A stretch of DNA of 23,900 nt from a virus: positions 1 to 23,900 of IMG/VR virus record IMGVR_UViG_3300030685_000094; one strand, written 5' to 3'. The position numbers and the translations under genes were made by a program. Positions 7,911 through 22,444 of the stretch are shown here, piece after piece; position 1 is the stretch's first letter; each line of letters opens with the position of its first letter. A model generated the notes under the pieces. The model was not told where the DNA came from, did no database searches, and was given only the letters and a program-made list of their open reading frames with translations.

Positions 7911-8309
7911 TTATTTCTTGATGAACGCTAAAAGTTCTTCAGGTGTAGCGTTCTTTATATCTATCTCTACCTTAGACTCTTGGATTATCCTTTGCGTGGC
8001 TTTTCATTCTACTCTGTCTACTATATCTTGACAGGCTCTAAGTTTAGTATCATCTTTCTCTGCTGTTGTAGCAATTACGTAGATCATATCCTTAGCAACT
8101 TGGAGTCTGTCCTCTATAGCTTTCTTTATGTTAGGCTTTGTTAAGTTCTCACTACCTATTGCTCTTGCACTTCATTCTGTTGTTTTCTTATATACATTCT
8201 TTACAGCTTGGGTAGCATTACCACTCTTTACTACTTCATTAACAAACTTCTCTTGCTTGATAGTAAGTTTAGTTCTTGGTTTACTTTGTTTCTTTTTTAC
8301 TACTACCAT
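7911..8309 (-). CDS. terS: Terminase small subunit (Terminase_2-like)
   Basis: 132 residues. It matches the small-terminase plan: basic N-terminus, LTIKQEKFVNEVVKSGNATQ (helix-turn-helix), AVKNVYKK, then SARAIGSENLTKPNIKKAIE, and an acidic oligomerisation region (LRACQDIVDRVEGKATQRII). The protein recognises the packaging site and recruits the large subunit. Only one or two TGA-Gly codons are used. It is clearly related to the damaged copy at 9564-9939 but divergent in sequence. No TerL follows it directly; the adaptor gene does. It is probably the working copy because its frame is intact. Confidence 0.85.
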
Positions 8310-8333
8310 ATTTATTCTTTACTGATTAAAAAT

Positions 8334-8654
8334 TTATCTAGCTTCTAATTCTTTTATTAGTTCTAATACATTCTTATCTCCTATCCATAGTTGTACTTCT
8401 TTCTCATCCATATGCTTAGCTTGGAGTTCGTCTATCTCTTTTAGATATGCTTCTATATCTGCTTCGTTTTCTATCTTACCATCAGCATTCTTTTCATACT
8501 TGTCTGCTATTGCCGTATGCTCCATAAACGGCATCTCTTTCTTTACTATCTCCATAAGTTTACCATCTTTCATAGTTAGCTTTGCTCCATTTACTGTTAC
8601 GTTTTCACCATCAATAGTTAATGCTACTAGTTTATCAAATTGCATCTTTTTCAT
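8334..8654 (-). CDS. Conserved-looking hypothetical protein, 106 residues
   Basis: Open from MKKMQFDKLVALTIDGENVT to TAA without any TGA, so it reads the same in the standard code. It has a beta-rich N-terminal third (short strands around TIDGENVTVNGAKLTMKDGK) and a charged, Glu/Lys-rich helical C-terminus ending ELIKELEAR. No motif recognised. It lies between the small-terminase gene and the duplicated small gene at 8667-8879, in the same orientation. Confidence 0.7.
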   Translation of the reverse strand: MKKMQFDKLVALTIDGENVTVNGAKLTMKDGKLMEIVKKEMPFMEHTAIADKYEKNADGKIENEADIEAYLKEIDELQAKHMDEKEVQLWIGDKNVLELIKELEAR

Positions 8655-8666
8655 AAGTATATATAT

Positions 8667-8879
8667 TTATAATTTAAAACATTTCTTTCTCTGAACTCGT
8701 GTCCAGAATTGTTGCATATTGTAATCACTTAACTTTCTATGGTCACATTCACATTCTTCTGAGTGGGTGCTAAACTTAACCTGATCTCTAAACTCTATCA
8801 TCAGATCCATACATACTCTAGCTCTTTTATCTTGTAGTTCTTCGTATGTCATACGTTCCCTTACTCACTGTTGTCACAT
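8667..8879 (-). CDS. Small protein, paralogue of 10520-10720
   Basis: 70 residues if read from the upstream ATG at 8877-8879 (MGQQGVRERMTYEELQ, with two TGA-Gly). A shorter reading starts at 8852. It shares a pattern with the product of 10520-10720: MDxxIEFxxQxK, then TxSE, then DYxxxxFxxxxxRK. Cys and His residues (SEECECDHRK) could bind metal. It lies downstream of a 107-bp exact repeat, as does its paralogue, so the two genes look like copies from one duplication that have since diverged. Function unknown. Confidence 0.65.
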
Positions 8880-8898
8880 AGGATTTAATAATATGTGA

Positions 8899-9005
8899 TA
8901 AATAACTTATATATATATTTTACTTTAGTATTTTCAATAGCATATCATATCTAATTTTATCTATATAACTTTCTGCTCCATTCTCTCTTATACTTTGTAT
9001 CTCTT
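8899..9005. repeat. 107-bp exact direct repeat, copy 1
   Basis: Identical over 107 bp to 10739-10845 (offset 1840 bp). It contains the last 27 codons and stop of the truncated large terminase (8920-9570) plus 21 bp downstream. In copy 2 the same bases are the natural 3' end of the gene at 10760-10957. Identity stops abruptly at both edges. A gene-tail duplication or recombination is implied; a metagenome assembly join is the alternative. Confidence 0.95.
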
Positions 9006-9570
9006 CTTTAATTGGTCTTATGAATGTAGAATATAGATGTCATTTATCTGGATTACATCACATTATTATCTTACCAACTATATTGTATTGCTTTATCTTC
9101 TCTGTTGGTCTTGATTTGATAATATTTATAGCTTTTAGTTCTACCTCTTGTGCTTCATCTATAAATGCATATGTAATCTCATATCATCATAGCCAGTTAA
9201 ATTCTGTATCTGTTGATTGTGTTTTTAATGGTACAAAAAATAACTTACTTCAATTAGAATAAGTAAGCTCTTTAGTCTGCATATTCAACACATAATCAAT
9301 ATCTTTCTTCAGTCAATGTGCTGATAATACTTTTGTTATAGTCAAAAGAGATGTCTTTCTAAGGTCATCCCATTCTCTTCTTCATATCAACCAGACTATT
9401 CAAGGCATCTGGATACAAGTAATATTTATTATCTCAGCTATTCACCAAGTCTTTCATCATCTAGCTCATCATCAAAATAATATCTCTGTTATAAGAGGAT
9501 TATTAAAACTATGTAATAGCTCTCATTGCTTCTTTGTTATCTTGAGTTGTAGTTCTCAGTCTTTTATCAT
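8920..9570 (-). CDS. Truncated terminase large subunit: ATPase domain fused to a duplicated gene tail
   Basis: 216 residues, about half the usual length of a large terminase. It has a Q-motif-like ITKKQGELLHSF, Walker A GGGARGGKT (residues 33-41, all five Gly by TGA), the region WLIGRREWDDL, the NGS strand (TYSNGSKLFF), STDTEFNWLGGY, Walker B YAFIDEAQE (D138, E139) and the coupling segment MGCNPDKGHLYSTFIRP. The RNase H-like nuclease domain that should follow is missing. After FIRPIKE the protein continues with the 27-residue tail of the gene at 10760-10957 through the 107-bp repeat. The start ATG overlaps the upstream stop as ATGATAA (9564-9570). It may be inactive, or an ATPase-only helper. 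Confidence 0.85.
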
Positions 9571-10720: not shown

Positions 10721-10738
10721 ATAAAACTTTTCTATATG

Positions 10739-10845
10739 TAAATAACTTATATATATATTTTACTTTAGTATTTTCAATAGCATATCATATCTAATTTTAT
10801 CTATATAACTTTCTGCTCCATTCTCTCTTATACTTTGTATCTCTT
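10739..10845. repeat. 107-bp exact direct repeat, copy 2
   Basis: Identical to 8899-9005. Here it spans the 3' end of the 65-codon gene at 10760-10957 and the start of the spacer before 10720. This copy is likely the original context because the 27 shared residues continue smoothly into a complete small gene. Confidence 0.95.
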
Positions 10846-10957
10846 GCATTATATATTCCATCTTCTCTTTATTGCTTTCCCAGATCGGTTGGTTTTTATT
10901 ATGATCTATGAAGTCTATTATCTCTTGGTTATATTCTCTTTGTGATTTTCTTTTCAT
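10760..10957 (-). CDS. Small charged protein; first gene of leftward operon
   Basis: 65 residues, MKRKSQREYNQEIIDFIDHN start, TAA stop, no TGA codon. Charged and helical, with no recognised domain. Its last 27 codons are duplicated exactly at the end of the truncated terminase (8920-9570). An in-frame TAA lies upstream of the ATG. Two promoters lie upstream (10990-11017 and 11100-11127), so it is likely the first translated gene of the leftward transcript. Confidence 0.65.
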   Translation of the reverse strand: MKRKSQREYNQEIIDFIDHNKNQPIWESNKEKMEYIMQEIQSIRENGAESYIDKIRYDMLLKILK

Positions 10958-11127: not shown

Positions 11128-11175
11128 GTAGAAAGTTTAGAGAAAGTATTGGCTTATTACCTATATTCTTTTATC

Positions 11176-11205
11176 TATATTTTACTTTTATGTAAGATTC
11201 TCTTG
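11176..11205. repeat. 30-bp dispersed element, copy 1
   Basis: 29 of 30 bases match 16978-17007, with core TTTTACTTTTATGTAAGATT. Both copies are in spacers upstream of rightward genes, which suggests an operator or regulatory site. No protein reads through both. Confidence 0.6.
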
Positions 11206-11604: not shown

Positions 11605-11769
11605 ATGCGAAGAGTCTATAGAGCTATACTTGTTCCTAGTAGGGTATGAGTAAAAGAAAAGAAAGGAGAGTTATTATTTACTTGCTTTGATGCTAGTGAT
11701 ATAGATATTAAGCTAAAAGAACTAGGACTTAAAAGATCTGATGTTATTAGAAGTAAAGATTGTTGATAA
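11605..11769 (+). CDS. Small early protein, 54 residues
   Basis: MRRVYRAILVPSRVGVKEKK start. The frame ends TGT-TGA-TAA, so its last residue is a TGA-Gly. Predicted short strands then a helix (DIDIKLKELGLKRSDVIRSK). No family recognised. Last gene before the promoter/RNA/terminator unit. Confidence 0.58.
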
Positions 11770-11804: not shown

Positions 11805-11832
11805 TTGGTATACATAGAAACAAATGTATAAA
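11805..11832 (+). promoter_or_regulatory. Promoter for the structured RNA
   Basis: TTGGTA (11805-11810), 16-nt spacer, TATAAA (11827-11832). The predicted start (about 11839) falls at the first paired base of the RNA below. A weaker overlapping candidate is TTGCTT with TATATA beginning about 11775. Confidence 0.55.
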
Positions 11833-11838
11833 TACATA

Positions 11839-11947
11839 AGTGTATCTCTCTTAAATCGTGGTGGGTTGGTGAGATAACACCACGAGCCAACCTGTATGAT
11901 TTAAGATATACACAGAACCCACCTCTAGCGATAGGAGTGGGTTTTTC
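11839..11947 (+). ncRNA. Candidate small structured RNA with pseudoknot or alternative hairpins
   Basis: About 108 nt with its own promoter and intrinsic terminator and no plausible reading frame. Outer helix: TGTAT (11841-11845) with ATACA (11908-11912), and TCTTAAATC (11849-11857) with GATTTAAGA (11898-11906), nine perfect pairs. Inner helix: CGTGGTG (11857-11863) with CACCACG (11878-11884). The inner loop carries GGTTGG (11864-11869), which can pair with CCAACC (11887-11892) between the two 3' strands, giving a pseudoknot or a competing hairpin. It lies directly before the replication initiator gene, so it could be a free sRNA, or a leader/attenuator controlling replication. Structure is by eye only. 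Confidence 0.6.
11916..11947 (+). terminator. Intrinsic terminator of the structured RNA
   Basis: AACCCAC (11916-11922) pairs with GTGGGTT (11937-11943), with a mismatch and three further pairs inside, a six-base loop, and then a T run (11942-11946). It ends transcription before the initiator gene at 11972, unless antiterminated. Confidence 0.8.
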
Positions 11948-11949
11948 TT

Positions 11950-11958
11950 TAGTTTATT
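11950..11958 (+). promoter_or_regulatory. Representative leader motif TAGTTTATT upstream of a start codon
   Basis: One of about a dozen TAGTTTTAT-like elements 21-30 nt before right-arm ATG codons; this one is 22 nt before the initiator start and lies in non-coding DNA. Others start at 11376, 14588, 15299, 15538, 15904, 17281, 18629, 20071, 20277, 21238 and 23565. See findings. It may aid translation initiation, as Shine-Dalgarno sequences are not seen. Confidence 0.45.
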
Positions 11959-11971
11959 ATTTGTTTTACTT

Positions 11972-12802
11972 ATGGACGGTCGAATAAAAATACATAGAAA
12001 GATGTTGCTATGGGGACGATATAGTGATGCAAATACATTTCGTGTATTTTTACATCTATTACTCATAGCCAACCATAAAGAAGTTAATCGAAGATGAATA
12101 AATATACCTAGATGATGAACAACTACATCTATGGAAACAGTAGCAAATGATTTGAAGCTAACAAAAAAACAAATAATTGTTGCAATAAAACACCTAAAAA
12201 GGACACAGGAAGTGTCACAAGAAAAAGTGTGAAGTTATTGGTTGATAACTGTTAAAAACTATGACTCTTATCAATCAGAGGTAACAGGAACGGTCTCTCA
12301 GAGGTCACAAGGAGGTCACAAGGAGGTCACTAAACAAGAATGAAAGAAAGAAATAACTAAAGAAATAATAAATATGTTCGATTTGTTTTGGAAAGAATAT
12401 CCATTAAAGAAATGAAAACATAAAGCTATGATTGCTTTCGATAATGCTACAAAGAAAACAGATGCACAGATTATAATTGATTGAGCTAAACTATACTACA
12501 ATGAATGTAAGAGAGAATGAACAGTACCAAAGTATATCAAACGACCTCAATGATGGTTAAATGAAAATAGATGGAAAGATATACAAGAAGATATTGAACC
12601 AGATACAGAAAATAAATGACATTATGAATGGTATAAGAGAAATATAATATGAAATGAGTTTACTGATCTTGATTGAACTAAACTAAAATATAAGGATATA
12701 AACTACAGAAGATTCCTTATCTATGAGAGATGAATAGAAAGAACAAAAGCACAGGAACTATATGAGAAAGCTAAGTGAGAACGAGTTGATTTATCTATTT
12801 AG
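11972..12802 (+). CDS. Phage replication initiator / replisome organiser
   Basis: 276 residues. The N-terminal half is a winged-helix domain of the phage replisome-organiser type: LLWGRYSDANTFRVFLHLLL, then INIPRGGTTTSMETVANDLK and LTKKQIIVAIKHLK, ending with YWLITVKNYDSYQ. A polar linker encoded by iteron-like repeats follows. The C-terminal half has the pattern FDLFWKEYPLKKGKHKAMIA, then YIKRPQGWLNENRW, found at the end of many phage initiators. It should bind the origin and load the helicase encoded at 13091. Conserved Gly in KKGKHKA and PQGWLN are TGA. It starts right after a terminator, so promoter read-through or another promoter is needed. Confidence 0.8.
12278..12330 (+). repeat. Iteron-like tandem repeats inside the initiator gene
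   Basis: GAGGTCACAAG at 12301-12311 and 12312-12322, GAGGTCAC at 12323-12330, and a diverged GAGGTAACAGG at 12278-12288. They encode the polar linker between the two initiator domains. Tandem repeats at this position recall the lambda O gene, where the origin lies inside the initiator gene. Candidate replication origin. Confidence 0.6.
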
Positions 12803-16925: not shown

Positions 16926-16966
16926 ATATAAATAAATGTCAAAAGTTTGAATTAGCTTAATAACTA

Positions 16967-17002
16967 CAATCTTATATTATATTTTACTTTTATGTAAGAT
17001 TG
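16967..17002. repeat. Inverted repeat in spacer
   Basis: CAATCTTA (16967-16974) and TAAGATTG (16995-17002), perfect 8-bp arms with a 20-bp loop, overlapping copy 2 of the 30-bp dispersed element. AT-rich, no T tract after it, so a protein-binding site is as likely as a hairpin. Confidence 0.5.
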
Positions 17003-17007
17003 TCTTG
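16978..17007. repeat. 30-bp dispersed element, copy 2
   Basis: 29/30 identical to 11176-11205. Located in the 190-bp spacer after the NinG-like gene. An open frame from ATG 16936 runs through it in phase with the gene at 17119, but the match to a non-coding copy argues for a regulatory role. Confidence 0.6.
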
Positions 17008-17306: not shown

Positions 17307-17843
17307 ATGACAAACGACAACTTTTTACCAGCAGACTACAAAAGTCCATCTACAGAGGGTGGATATATGAAATTCAAAGCAGGACAAAACAAATTTAGAG
17401 TTCTAGGATCAGCGTTGATTGGTTGGGAATACTTCAATCAAGACAACAAGCCACAAAGATTTGCTATGGATATGAAACCTAGCGCACCTAAGGACATCAA
17501 AGCCGATGGTAAAGTTAAACACTTCCGAGCGTTCCCAGTATTCAACTATCAAACAAACAGTATTGAGATTCTTGAACTTACTCAATCTAGTATTATGGGT
17601 ACTATCAAAGAATATATTGACAATCCTAAGTGGGGGAATCCTACTGCATACGATATTATTGTAGGTAGAACAGGAGAGGGACTAGAAACAGAATATACTG
17701 TGACAGTAGACCCTAAAGAAGCTATAGATAAAGAAGTACAAGAAGCGTATAAGCAAATGAATATCTATATGGAAGCATTGCTTACTGGAGAAAATCCATT
17801 CACTACACAAGCACCAAGTGAACCAGATAATTTACCATTTTAG
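17307..17843 (+). CDS. ssb: Single-stranded DNA-binding protein
   Basis: 178 residues. The plan is that of phage SSBs: beta-rich N-terminal OB-fold-like domain (GGYMKFKAGQNKFRVLGSAL,  then IGWEYF, FRAFPVFNYQ, IEILELTQSSIMGTI), then an acidic tail ending PSEPDNLPF, which matches the DDLPF-type tip that binds partner proteins. It coats single strands at the fork and during recombination. It uses no TGA at all: all 12 Gly are GGN, unlike flanking genes. A strong hairpin terminator follows its TAG stop. Likely one of the most expressed replication proteins. Confidence 0.82.
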   Translation: MTNDNFLPADYKSPSTEGGYMKFKAGQNKFRVLGSALIGWEYFNQDNKPQRFAMDMKPSAPKDIKADGKVKHFRAFPVFNYQTNSIEILELTQSSIMGTIKEYIDNPKWGNPTAYDIIVGRTGEGLETEYTVTVDPKEAIDKEVQEAYKQMNIYMEALLTGENPFTTQAPSEPDNLPF

Positions 17844-18653: not shown

Positions 18654-19868
18654 ATGCTAGAAAAACTAACAGCAAAACAAGAAAAAGATATGTTAAAACA
18701 TAGAGATAAATATCTCAATTACTTCTTTGATTGCAAAACTAAATATGACCAATCAAAAGTAGAAGCTGGTATAAATATGATGTATAGTCTATGTGGGTAT
18801 AAAAACCCAGAAATTGTATATTTATATTCTCCACTTGGATTACAATATTTTGCTAATCTTATAAATAATACGCAAACTGATAAAAAACTAGACAATGTTC
18901 GAGTCAATGTTAGAGACAATGTTAGAGCAAATGTTTTAGCCAATGTTTGATCCAATGTTCGAGCCAATGTTAGAGCAAATGTTAGAGCAAATGTTTGAGT
19001 AAATGTTTGATCCAATGTTCGAGCCAATGTTAGAGACAATGTTTTAGCAAATGTTTGATCCAATGTTAGAGCAAATGTTAGAGCAAATGTTTGAGTAAAT
19101 GTTAGAGAAAATGTTTGAGCCAATGTTATAGACAATGTTTGATCCAATGTTATAGACAATGTTCGAGCAAATGTTAGAGCAAATGTTAGAGCAAATGTTT
19201 GAGCCAATGTTTGAGCCAATCTATATTATTATGAATTTTCCTCATACGGCAATTGTTGGGATTTAGGATGGGTAGCTTTCTATGATTACTTTAATTCAAT
19301 TTGAATTGATTTAGGTAAATCAAAAGATAATTTCTTTATATTTAGAGATATGATATTAAATTGAGTATACGATATGATCCATTTTGAGAATATATGTATT
19401 GTATCTATGAATCCTATTAAAATAGAAAGAGACGATCGTGGTAGATTACATAATGAAAATTGATTTGCTATTGAGTTCAAAGATTGATATGTATTAAACT
19501 ATCTACAATGAGTAAATATCCCATACGAAATGTACGGTAAAATAGTAAATGATAAAATGACACCTAAAGATGTGTTCGCTATAGAAAATACAGAACTTAG
19601 AAGAATAGCTTATGAATATATGGATAAAAAGAAGATGAAAAAACTAAAGTGATATAAGATATTAGACAAAGCTAAAGATGGATATAATAATAAAATGAAT
19701 ATAGTGGAATTTAATATAGAATGATTTGATAAACCATTTAGATATTATAATTGTATTTGTCCTAGCACAGGTAGAGAATACTTCTTAGAGACAGAAGAAA
19801 AAACATGTGAGAAAGCTAAGTCTAAATCATTTGGTATGGATAATATAGTATGGGATATAGAGGCATAA
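18654..19868 (+). CDS. DUF6745-like protein with V-x-x-x repeat helix
   Basis: 404 residues. Residues 1-80 form a helical start (MLEKLTAKQEKDMLKHRDKY, then SPLGLQYFANLI). Residues 81-186 are about 27 tandem four-residue units N-V-x-x, coded by a 12-bp repeat. The C-terminal domain has the family hallmarks: MNPIKIERDDRGRLHNENG, then FAIEFKDGYVLNYLQGVNIP, then AIENTELRRIAYEYM and CPSTGREYFLE. Such proteins, with VxxxVxxx repeats before the domain, occur in bacteria and phages; role unknown. Many Gly are TGA, including those within repeats (NVGS, NVGA). Confidence 0.72.
18894..19211 (+). repeat. 12-bp tandem coding repeats (about 27 units)
   Basis: Unit AATGTTnnnnnn with preferred continuations AGAGCA, TGATCC, CGAGCC, AGAGAC. 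The first two codons are always Asn-Val; the third is Arg, Gly (TGA), Leu or Ile. Exact 12-bp periodicity suggests growth and shrinkage by slippage or unequal recombination. Confidence 0.9.
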
Positions 19869-21898: not shown

Positions 21899-22444
21899 AT
21901 GATGAAATTCAAACTAACAAAAAACACTAAAAACTATTATTGAACTACATTATATCAGATTGAAGCAACTATGTCATTCTGAAATATAAATAAATGAGAA
22001 CTTTGAGGATGGATAGAGAAAGAGAGTAATCTATCACAAGAAAATAATGCTTGGGTCTCTGGTAATGCTAGTGTCTCTGGTAATGCTAGGGTAGATGGTG
22101 ATGCTAGGGTCTTTGGTAATGCTAGGGTCTTTGGTAATGCTAGGGTCTCTGGTAATGCTAGGGTCTTTGGTAATGCTAGGGTCTCTGGTGATGCTAGGGT
22201 CTATGGTAATACTTGTGTCTCTGGTAATGCTAGGGTCTTTGGTAATGCTAGGGTCTTTGGTAATGCTATTGTCTCTGGTAATGCTAGGGTCTCTGGTAAT
22301 GCTAGGGTCTTTGGTAAAATAAAACTTCAATATGGGTGGTGTTTTGCAAGAAAAGAGAAAGACCGGGATGTGTCAGAAGTAGAAAACGAATGAATAATCC
22401 TACTTATTAAAGATTATAAACTAGCAGAGGAAGAAACAATTTAA
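21899..22444 (+). CDS. Left-handed beta-helix hexapeptide-repeat protein
   Basis: 181 residues. The N-terminus MMKFKLTKNTKNYYGTTLYQ followed by NINKGELGGWIEKESNLSQ matches a family common in phages and bacteria: a small start domain with the GxLGGW signature, followed by NARV-type repeats. Here 15 six-residue units (NARVSG, NARVFG) run from 22046 to 22315 and would form a left-handed parallel beta helix. Then a C-terminal tail (KIKLQYGWCFARKEKDRD). TGA codes for nearly every Gly in the start domain but the repeats use only GGT. Function unknown; adhesion or protein binding suggested for relatives. Confidence 0.72.
22046..22315 (+). repeat. 18-bp tandem coding repeats (15 units)
   Basis: Unit of the form AATGCTAGGGTCTCTGGT, with TCT/TTT variation at the fifth codon. 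Exactly 270 bp. Codes for hexapeptides of the beta helix. Confidence 0.92.

Follow-up and report, generated by a model that had tools for sequence, protein, structure and literature searches.

The segment before the replication-initiator gene (rep) of a recoded phage is probably a default-terminated leader, that is, a transcription attenuator of that gene. It lies in IMGVR_UViG_3300030685_000094, a virus contig of 23.9 kb, all 23,900 nucleotides of which we call the window. Three observations carry this reading: a promoter, a 5′ hairpin and a terminator follow one another in order; terminators recur directly before rep in other recoded phages; and a loop–loop helix covaries in a family of flavobacterial phage leaders of similar layout.

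Genetic code and gene layout of the window

Under translation table 11 the window contains almost no long frames, whereas reading TGA as sense yields frames of 400–650 codons. Within the initiator, two TGA positions fall where 29/29 and 26/29 standard-code relatives have glycine, and CGA stands at tryptophan columns (25/29 and 29/29); the initiator of a second phage, G002 (locus L090), likewise has CGA at tryptophan columns and TGA at glycine columns. The published Absconditabacteria code reads UGA as glycine and CGA/CGG as tryptophan (PMC8629427), and phages with code 25 have been assigned to Absconditabacteria hosts (PMC10746230). The codon pattern points to a phage that uses code 25 (TGA = Gly) with CGA = Trp in addition, and to an Absconditabacteria host. 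Because the window and G002 both use CGA for tryptophan besides TGA for glycine, plain table 25 mistranslates both phages.

Genes up to ~10957 run leftward and encode terminase and structural-type proteins, and rightward genes begin at ~11406; GC-skew changes sign at ~11 kb, where gene orientation flips as well. A small ORF (11605–11769, plus strand, from the code 25 ORF list) ends 35 bases before the −35 box of the unit, and family searches assigned it to no family. The initiator gene itself (11972–12802, plus strand; read with TGA = Gly and CGA = Trp) is DnaD-like and matches phrog_270 (PHROGs, 1e-20, and homologues); a TOPRIM/DnaB primase–helicase gene comes after it.

Several repeats were also observed. 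Positions 8892–9005 and 10733–10845 form a near-identical duplication of 114 bp, and the C-terminus of a terminase-like gene at 8920–9570 is the same as that of a small gene at 10760–10957, as if cut by the copied segment; a second terminase-like gene starts at 448 on the minus strand. Two rightward genes carry long in-gene tandem repeats of the ANVRANVGSNV and SGNARVFGNARV types (18889–19220 and 22045–22317) and probably encode beta-solenoid proteins. A 58-bp repeat connects 11148–11205 with 16951–17007 at 86% identity.

Promoter, 5′ domain and terminator of the unit

The unit opens on the plus strand with a putative promoter (11805–11832), TTGGTA (11805–11810) and TATAAA (11827–11832) separated by 16 bases, which was identified by consensus match and has the same layout as promoters before units of other recoded phages. 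By itself this pattern has a ~2% chance in shuffles; the window is AT-rich, so TATA boxes are common. The first-pass annotation had recognized this promoter and set the transcription start at the first base of a nine-pair helix. The promoter was recovered, whereas the predicted start moves to ~11839–11840, nine bases before that helix, where an outer helix GTGTAT (11840–11845)/ATACAC (11908–11913) begins.

From this start, the 5′ domain (11840–11913, plus strand) is predicted to form one continuous hairpin of −31.5 kcal/mol, in which GTGTAT/ATACAC, then TCTTAAATC(GTG)/(TAT)GATTTAAGA, and the inner GGGTTGGT/GCCAACCT all stack. The folded region as a whole reaches −51 kcal/mol (z = −6.7), and 0 of 200 shuffles were as stable. 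Three elements proposed earlier were found as described: the nine-pair helix TCTTAAATC (11849–11857)/GATTTAAGA (11898–11906), the seven-pair hairpin CGTGGTG (11857–11863)/CACCACG (11878–11884), and the complementarity of its loop GGTTGG (11864–11869) to CCAACC (11887–11892). The pseudoknot built on them fared less well: the complementarity exists, but at minimum energy the RNA is predicted to fold into a single long hairpin that takes in GGTTGG:CCAACC as a nested helix and no longer contains the seven-pair hairpin. Among nested folds, the long hairpin has −46.8 kcal/mol versus −37.1 kcal/mol with the seven-pair hairpin kept. Our energies leave out pseudoknots and host temperature, and the seven-pair hairpin together with the pseudoknot may come near the long hairpin in energy. 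In a nascent-chain folding series, the seven-pair hairpin was favored up to ~11893 and displaced once the outer helix was complete. The 6-nt match of loop to 3′ flank alone occurs in 7.8% of shuffles; TATCTC (11843–11848) is complementary to GAGATA (11871–11876), so that both halves of the loop have a flank partner, and the two together gave P = 0.001 (shuffles; like some of our other P values, post hoc). We keep the seven-pair hairpin (11857–11884, plus strand) as an alternative structure and GGTTGG:CCAACC as a possible pseudoknot.

Directly after the 5′ hairpin comes a predicted intrinsic terminator (11914–11951, plus strand) of the order AGAACCCAC-CTCTAGCGATAGGA-GTGGGTTTT, with an inner stem closed by a GCGA tetraloop. 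Its strength had been noted before, and both the stem AGAACCCAC (11914–11922)/GTGGGTTTT (11937–11945) and the T-run are present, giving the GC-rich hairpin and T-rich tail by which intrinsic termination is predicted. Within the 5′ domain, GGTGGGTT (11860–11867, plus strand) is a perfect complement of AACCCACC (11916–11923) in the terminator 5′ arm and is a candidate antiterminator strand. No other single helix of the unit is as strong (−17.3 kcal/mol; complementarity P = 0.009 in shuffles, post hoc). According to the folding model this pairing would break the terminator, but only while the 5′ domain is kept from closing; the fold that contains it lies ~18 kcal/mol above the terminated fold in total energy.

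The unit had been described as stand-alone and as fitting no reading frame. The first description is misleading, since only 26 nt separate the end of the terminator from the rep ATG, and rep thus follows as the next gene in one transcription unit with it. The second needs qualification: with TGA as glycine, no stop interrupts the rep frame upstream as far as a GTG at 11858, yet homologues begin at M-x-G, which corresponds to the ATG at 11972.

Recurrence in other recoded phages

The only close relative of the window is IMGVR_UViG_3300028857_000164, identical over 8.6 kb. Single-protein searches returned nothing beyond this sister contig, and searches of the spacer sequence in phages gave chance matches only. 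Because the element has no variable homologue, its helices are without covariation support. The comparison with Rfam 15 suggested in the first-pass annotation found no family above the gathering threshold in the window, and ARAGORN found no tRNA or tmRNA match for the unit. Pistol and hammerhead ribozymes, like type III toxin–antitoxin RNAs, were considered and rejected: Rfam gave no match, repeat arrays are absent, and a replication initiator lies downstream.

A DnaD alignment scan collected 80 loci, nearly all from standard-code relatives; recoded loci were reached only by initiator DNA patterns demanding TGA at conserved glycines. The same TGA-at-glycine pattern had three matches in GTDB genomes (DNA pattern only), in records labeled Prevotellaceae, Gammaproteobacteria and Actinobacteria. 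L094 and L088/89/92/93 were discarded as chance matches to the pattern. The recoded set comprised L087 (G001), L090 (G002), L091 (G003), L106/L107 (G004/G005, whose unit sequence is the same) and L108 (G006), making six independent phages with the window.

A terminator lies at most 45 nt upstream of rep in five of these six (the window, G001, G002, G004/G005 and G006), versus 6 of 272 other non-redundant ORFs of at least 60 codons (P = 2 × 10⁻⁷); in G003 it lies ~340 nt upstream. Two of those six other ORFs are the G001 genes at 17611 and 25911. The units before them, two more kissing-terminator units ending at 17592 and 25893 (rep orientation), stand directly before non-rep genes. The recoded rep units leave a terminator-to-ORF gap of 15–26 nt and resemble the window unit in the TTGNNN-N16-TATA promoter (found in front of six of the seven units examined in other recoded phages), the strong 5′ fold, the terminator and the TGA-recoded, DnaD-like rep. 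Unlike the window, all of these relatives have a terminator loop complementary over 8–11 nt to the 5′ domain (GGTACTCC, TCACCCTCC, GGTCGCCAA, GACTAAAGAGA and ACAATCCTTGC, with GCTAAAGACA and CGACCAGA in the additional G001 units).

A kissing-loop RNA family in flavobacterial phages

Loop-complementary terminators were found upstream of rep in 9 of 65 distinct regions of relatives (recoded ones included) versus 0 of 1300 dinucleotide shuffles, and the same scan of the reverse strand found none. A pattern derived from them matched at least 120 IMG/VR stretches. The matches listed contain 90 distinct sequences, of which 80 passed an automatic test and nine of the rest were chance matches; L122 has its matched loop pair. 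Thirteen loop types, each exactly matched, occur among the flavobacterial matches listed (family loci L118–L236, L013, L024, L028, L036, L040, L044, L050, L055, L057, L079, L082, L085, L114, L117 and L243–L247).

We aligned 44 of the listed units with MAFFT, which is blind to structure. Four helices, namely S1, the loop–loop helix, the terminator stem and the inner stem, kept 100% of 1142 pair cells, with double changes in 20 of 26 pairs and a covariation score of 0.759 versus 0.229 in shuffled alignments (0 of 500 as high); when partners were slid, pairing fell to 30–44%. Because units had been preselected for a terminator and some loop match, these figures favor the terminator stem and the loop–loop helix, whereas S1 and the inner stem are free of this selection. 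Several positions of the terminator stem have U-G in place of Watson–Crick pairs, which indicates selection on RNA. The terminators also share an internal loop, UGAA/GGAU, that is conserved and could accommodate tandem G-A pairs. Within a single genus, snork6-2 and morran9-1 differ by one compensated pair in the loop–loop helix (GTGAGACG/CGTCTCAC versus GTGAGAAG/CTTCTCAC).

The family is tied to replication genes, counted as DnaD-like genes or DUF6291 (annotated as 'replication protein' in Flavobacterium phages). Among the matches listed, 55 of 78 distinct units are followed by such a gene and none is preceded by one; the distance is 14–25 nt in 24 of the 55 and 179–269 nt in 27. The next ORF mostly begins 22–26 nt after the terminator in 75 of the listed units, and each listed flavobacterial locus has one unit. 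All seven flavobacterial isolates examined have the unit (P12002L, phi18:3, phi19:3, 11b, snork6-2, morran9-1 and elemoC), and none was found in nine other isolates with related initiators. In L187 and L165, genes that probably encode homing endonucleases (HNH/NUMOD4; one GIY-YIG-like) directly follow the RNA unit. We also noted that L113 (PP511318.1, Dulem virus 31) is filed as Microviridae yet has 35.8 kb and a replisome organizer gene, so its taxonomy looks wrong.

Rfam 15 matched no family at 19 of the loci, and the literature searched, which misses most subscription journals, contained no description of a kissing-loop leader family, which apparently is undescribed. The covariance model of the family, R1, had no match in 395 Bacteroidota genomes under strict filters and with no positive control. 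The loop–loop helix and the terminator occur in one and the same structure, so the helix is no simple antiterminator; its role may be to tune termination, to stabilize the RNA once released, or to offer nascent leaders a point of contact with released RNA in trans.

Relation of the window unit to known systems

The flavobacterial leaders (Flavobacterium phages 11b, snork6-2, morran9-1 and elemoC, Cellulophaga phages phi18:3 and phi19:3, and Polaribacter phages P12002L/S; A4/R1) share with the window a host-type promoter, a 5′ hairpin from the predicted start, a terminator and a next ORF 14–27 nt on, which in the window is rep and in the leaders either the replication gene or a small gene that precedes it. 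They differ from it in that an 8-nt loop segment pairs with the terminator apical loop, where the window has its GCGA tetraloop, and there is no sequence similarity. The best match of the window terminator loop to the 5′ domain is 4 nt, short of the 7 nt or more that characterize the kissing-loop family, and the scan for loop-complementary terminators had no match at the window unit. R1 gave no match at E ≤ 1 in the window or the recoded loci; it recovered phi18:3, on which it had not been trained, at 45 bits. The window unit is an architectural analogue of the kissing-loop family rather than an established member: it lacks both the loop match and an R1 match and has the layout and the target gene in common with the family. 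We therefore treat it as a distinct form of the terminated leaders of phages.

The phage lambda PR′–tR′ leader (6S RNA) has a constitutive promoter, a short RNA and a terminator just before an operon that is off by default, a layout shared with the window unit. In lambda, however, Q acts at DNA sites and late genes are controlled, and no Q-like factor was identified in the window. In phage P4 (CI RNA) and in plasmid rep attenuation (pT181/pIP501), leader RNA likewise ends transcription before replication genes; a trans-acting RNA is established there, whereas for the window unit it is hypothetical. IsrK of Gifsy-1 is described as a prophage-encoded short RNA that also has a longer messenger form (PMC4825925); it involves different genes and offers no sequence or structural link to the window.

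Function of the unit

As a default-terminated leader, the unit would work as follows. Host RNA polymerase would begin at ~11840, the leader would fold at once into the long, stable 5′ hairpin, and the terminator (11914–11945) would release an RNA of ~105 nt, so that rep would be made only by polymerases passing the terminator. Candidates for raising read-through are a factor encoded by the phage or the host and an RNA partner that blocks the 5′ domain, leaving GGTGGGTT free to pair with the terminator arm AACCCACC. The 26-nt gap has no room for a second promoter, which makes rep dependent on read-through, and this dependence is the main argument for attenuation in cis: to judge from the layout, rep is apparently transcribed only past the terminator. 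What the analysis shows directly are the sequence elements, the extra stability of the fold, its location and the repeated layout; activity of both signals in the host, and regulation of read-through by some trigger, are inferred. The earlier suggestion of a control unit placed before the initiator is thus partly upheld, by its position, by the recurrence of terminators at rep and by a covarying flavobacterial RNA before replication genes. Against attenuation stand the absence of the hallmark of the relatives, the energy cost of the antiterminator fold in the model, and the nature of the window evidence, in which the helices are without covariation and the putative promoter and terminator are consensus matches.

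A different reading, to which we give limited though appreciable weight, is a stand-alone small RNA gene whose terminated ~105-nt product works in trans, its target being a transcript or protein of the phage or the host, with proximity to rep reflecting co-inheritance only. The unit does have its own promoter, its own terminator and a very stable fold, and the flavobacterial family keeps all four helices together, which is what a completed RNA with a fold of its own should show. Between its divergent operons (8296–8730), G002 has three successive promoter/structured RNA/terminator stretches, only the last of which is directly before rep, while the other two do not immediately precede any gene; the pseudoknot score of the two upstream units was not significant. 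Such a gene would not, however, require the narrow terminator-to-ORF gap seen in both the flavobacterial and the recoded units.

It is improbable that the terminated RNA represses its own leader in trans, meeting nascent leaders of the same type loop to loop as in P4 CI-like or plasmid-like copy control. Antisense-controlled plasmids fall into loop-specificity groups, which the 13 exactly matched flavobacterial loop types, with one unit per locus among the matches listed, resemble; the window itself lacks a loop-to-terminator-loop match. Lysogenic immunity is an unlikely purpose, since the study that isolated morran9-1 reported 38 virulent phages and one temperate phage, laban6-1 (PMC7077304).

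We give little credence to an ordinary terminator of the small-ORF operon beside a chance promoter-like sequence, with no regulation involved. The shuffle frequencies of the promoter pattern (~2%) and of the antiterminator (0.9%), and the abundance of TATA boxes in AT-rich DNA, leave room for it, but the terminator sits after the promoter, 145 nt past the small ORF, and the layout recurs at rep. Most improbable is a DNA-level replication origin or transcript primer, with the repeats and hairpins as origin structure and the transcript as activator or primer, for although the unit adjoins the initiator near the GC-skew sign change at ~11 kb (where gene orientation flips too), terminators and promoters are kept and the U-G pairs of the flavobacterial terminator stem point to selection on one RNA strand, not on DNA.

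Implications

Few systems of RNA-controlled initiation of phage replication are known to us. The probable default-terminated leader of the window and its counterparts suggest that leaders of this kind recur at the replication initiator of phages whose hosts belong to two unrelated phyla. Speculatively, the window might be a divergent form of a widespread, undescribed group of self-terminating phage leaders before the initiator, in which loop pairing (at least 13 exactly matched flavobacterial types) would set type-specific replication control and the released RNA would silence same-type leaders in trans, a group whose origin or exchange would span Bacteroidota phages and the phages of recoded Absconditabacteria; we regard this broader picture as unlikely in full. 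The flavobacterial RNA family, with its textbook covariation and its absence from Rfam, can be tested in cultured phages, namely Flavobacterium phages 11b, snork6-2 and morran9-1, Cellulophaga phage phi18:3 and Polaribacter phage P12002L. For phages of the uncultured Absconditabacteria, the unit provides a concrete candidate for replication control.
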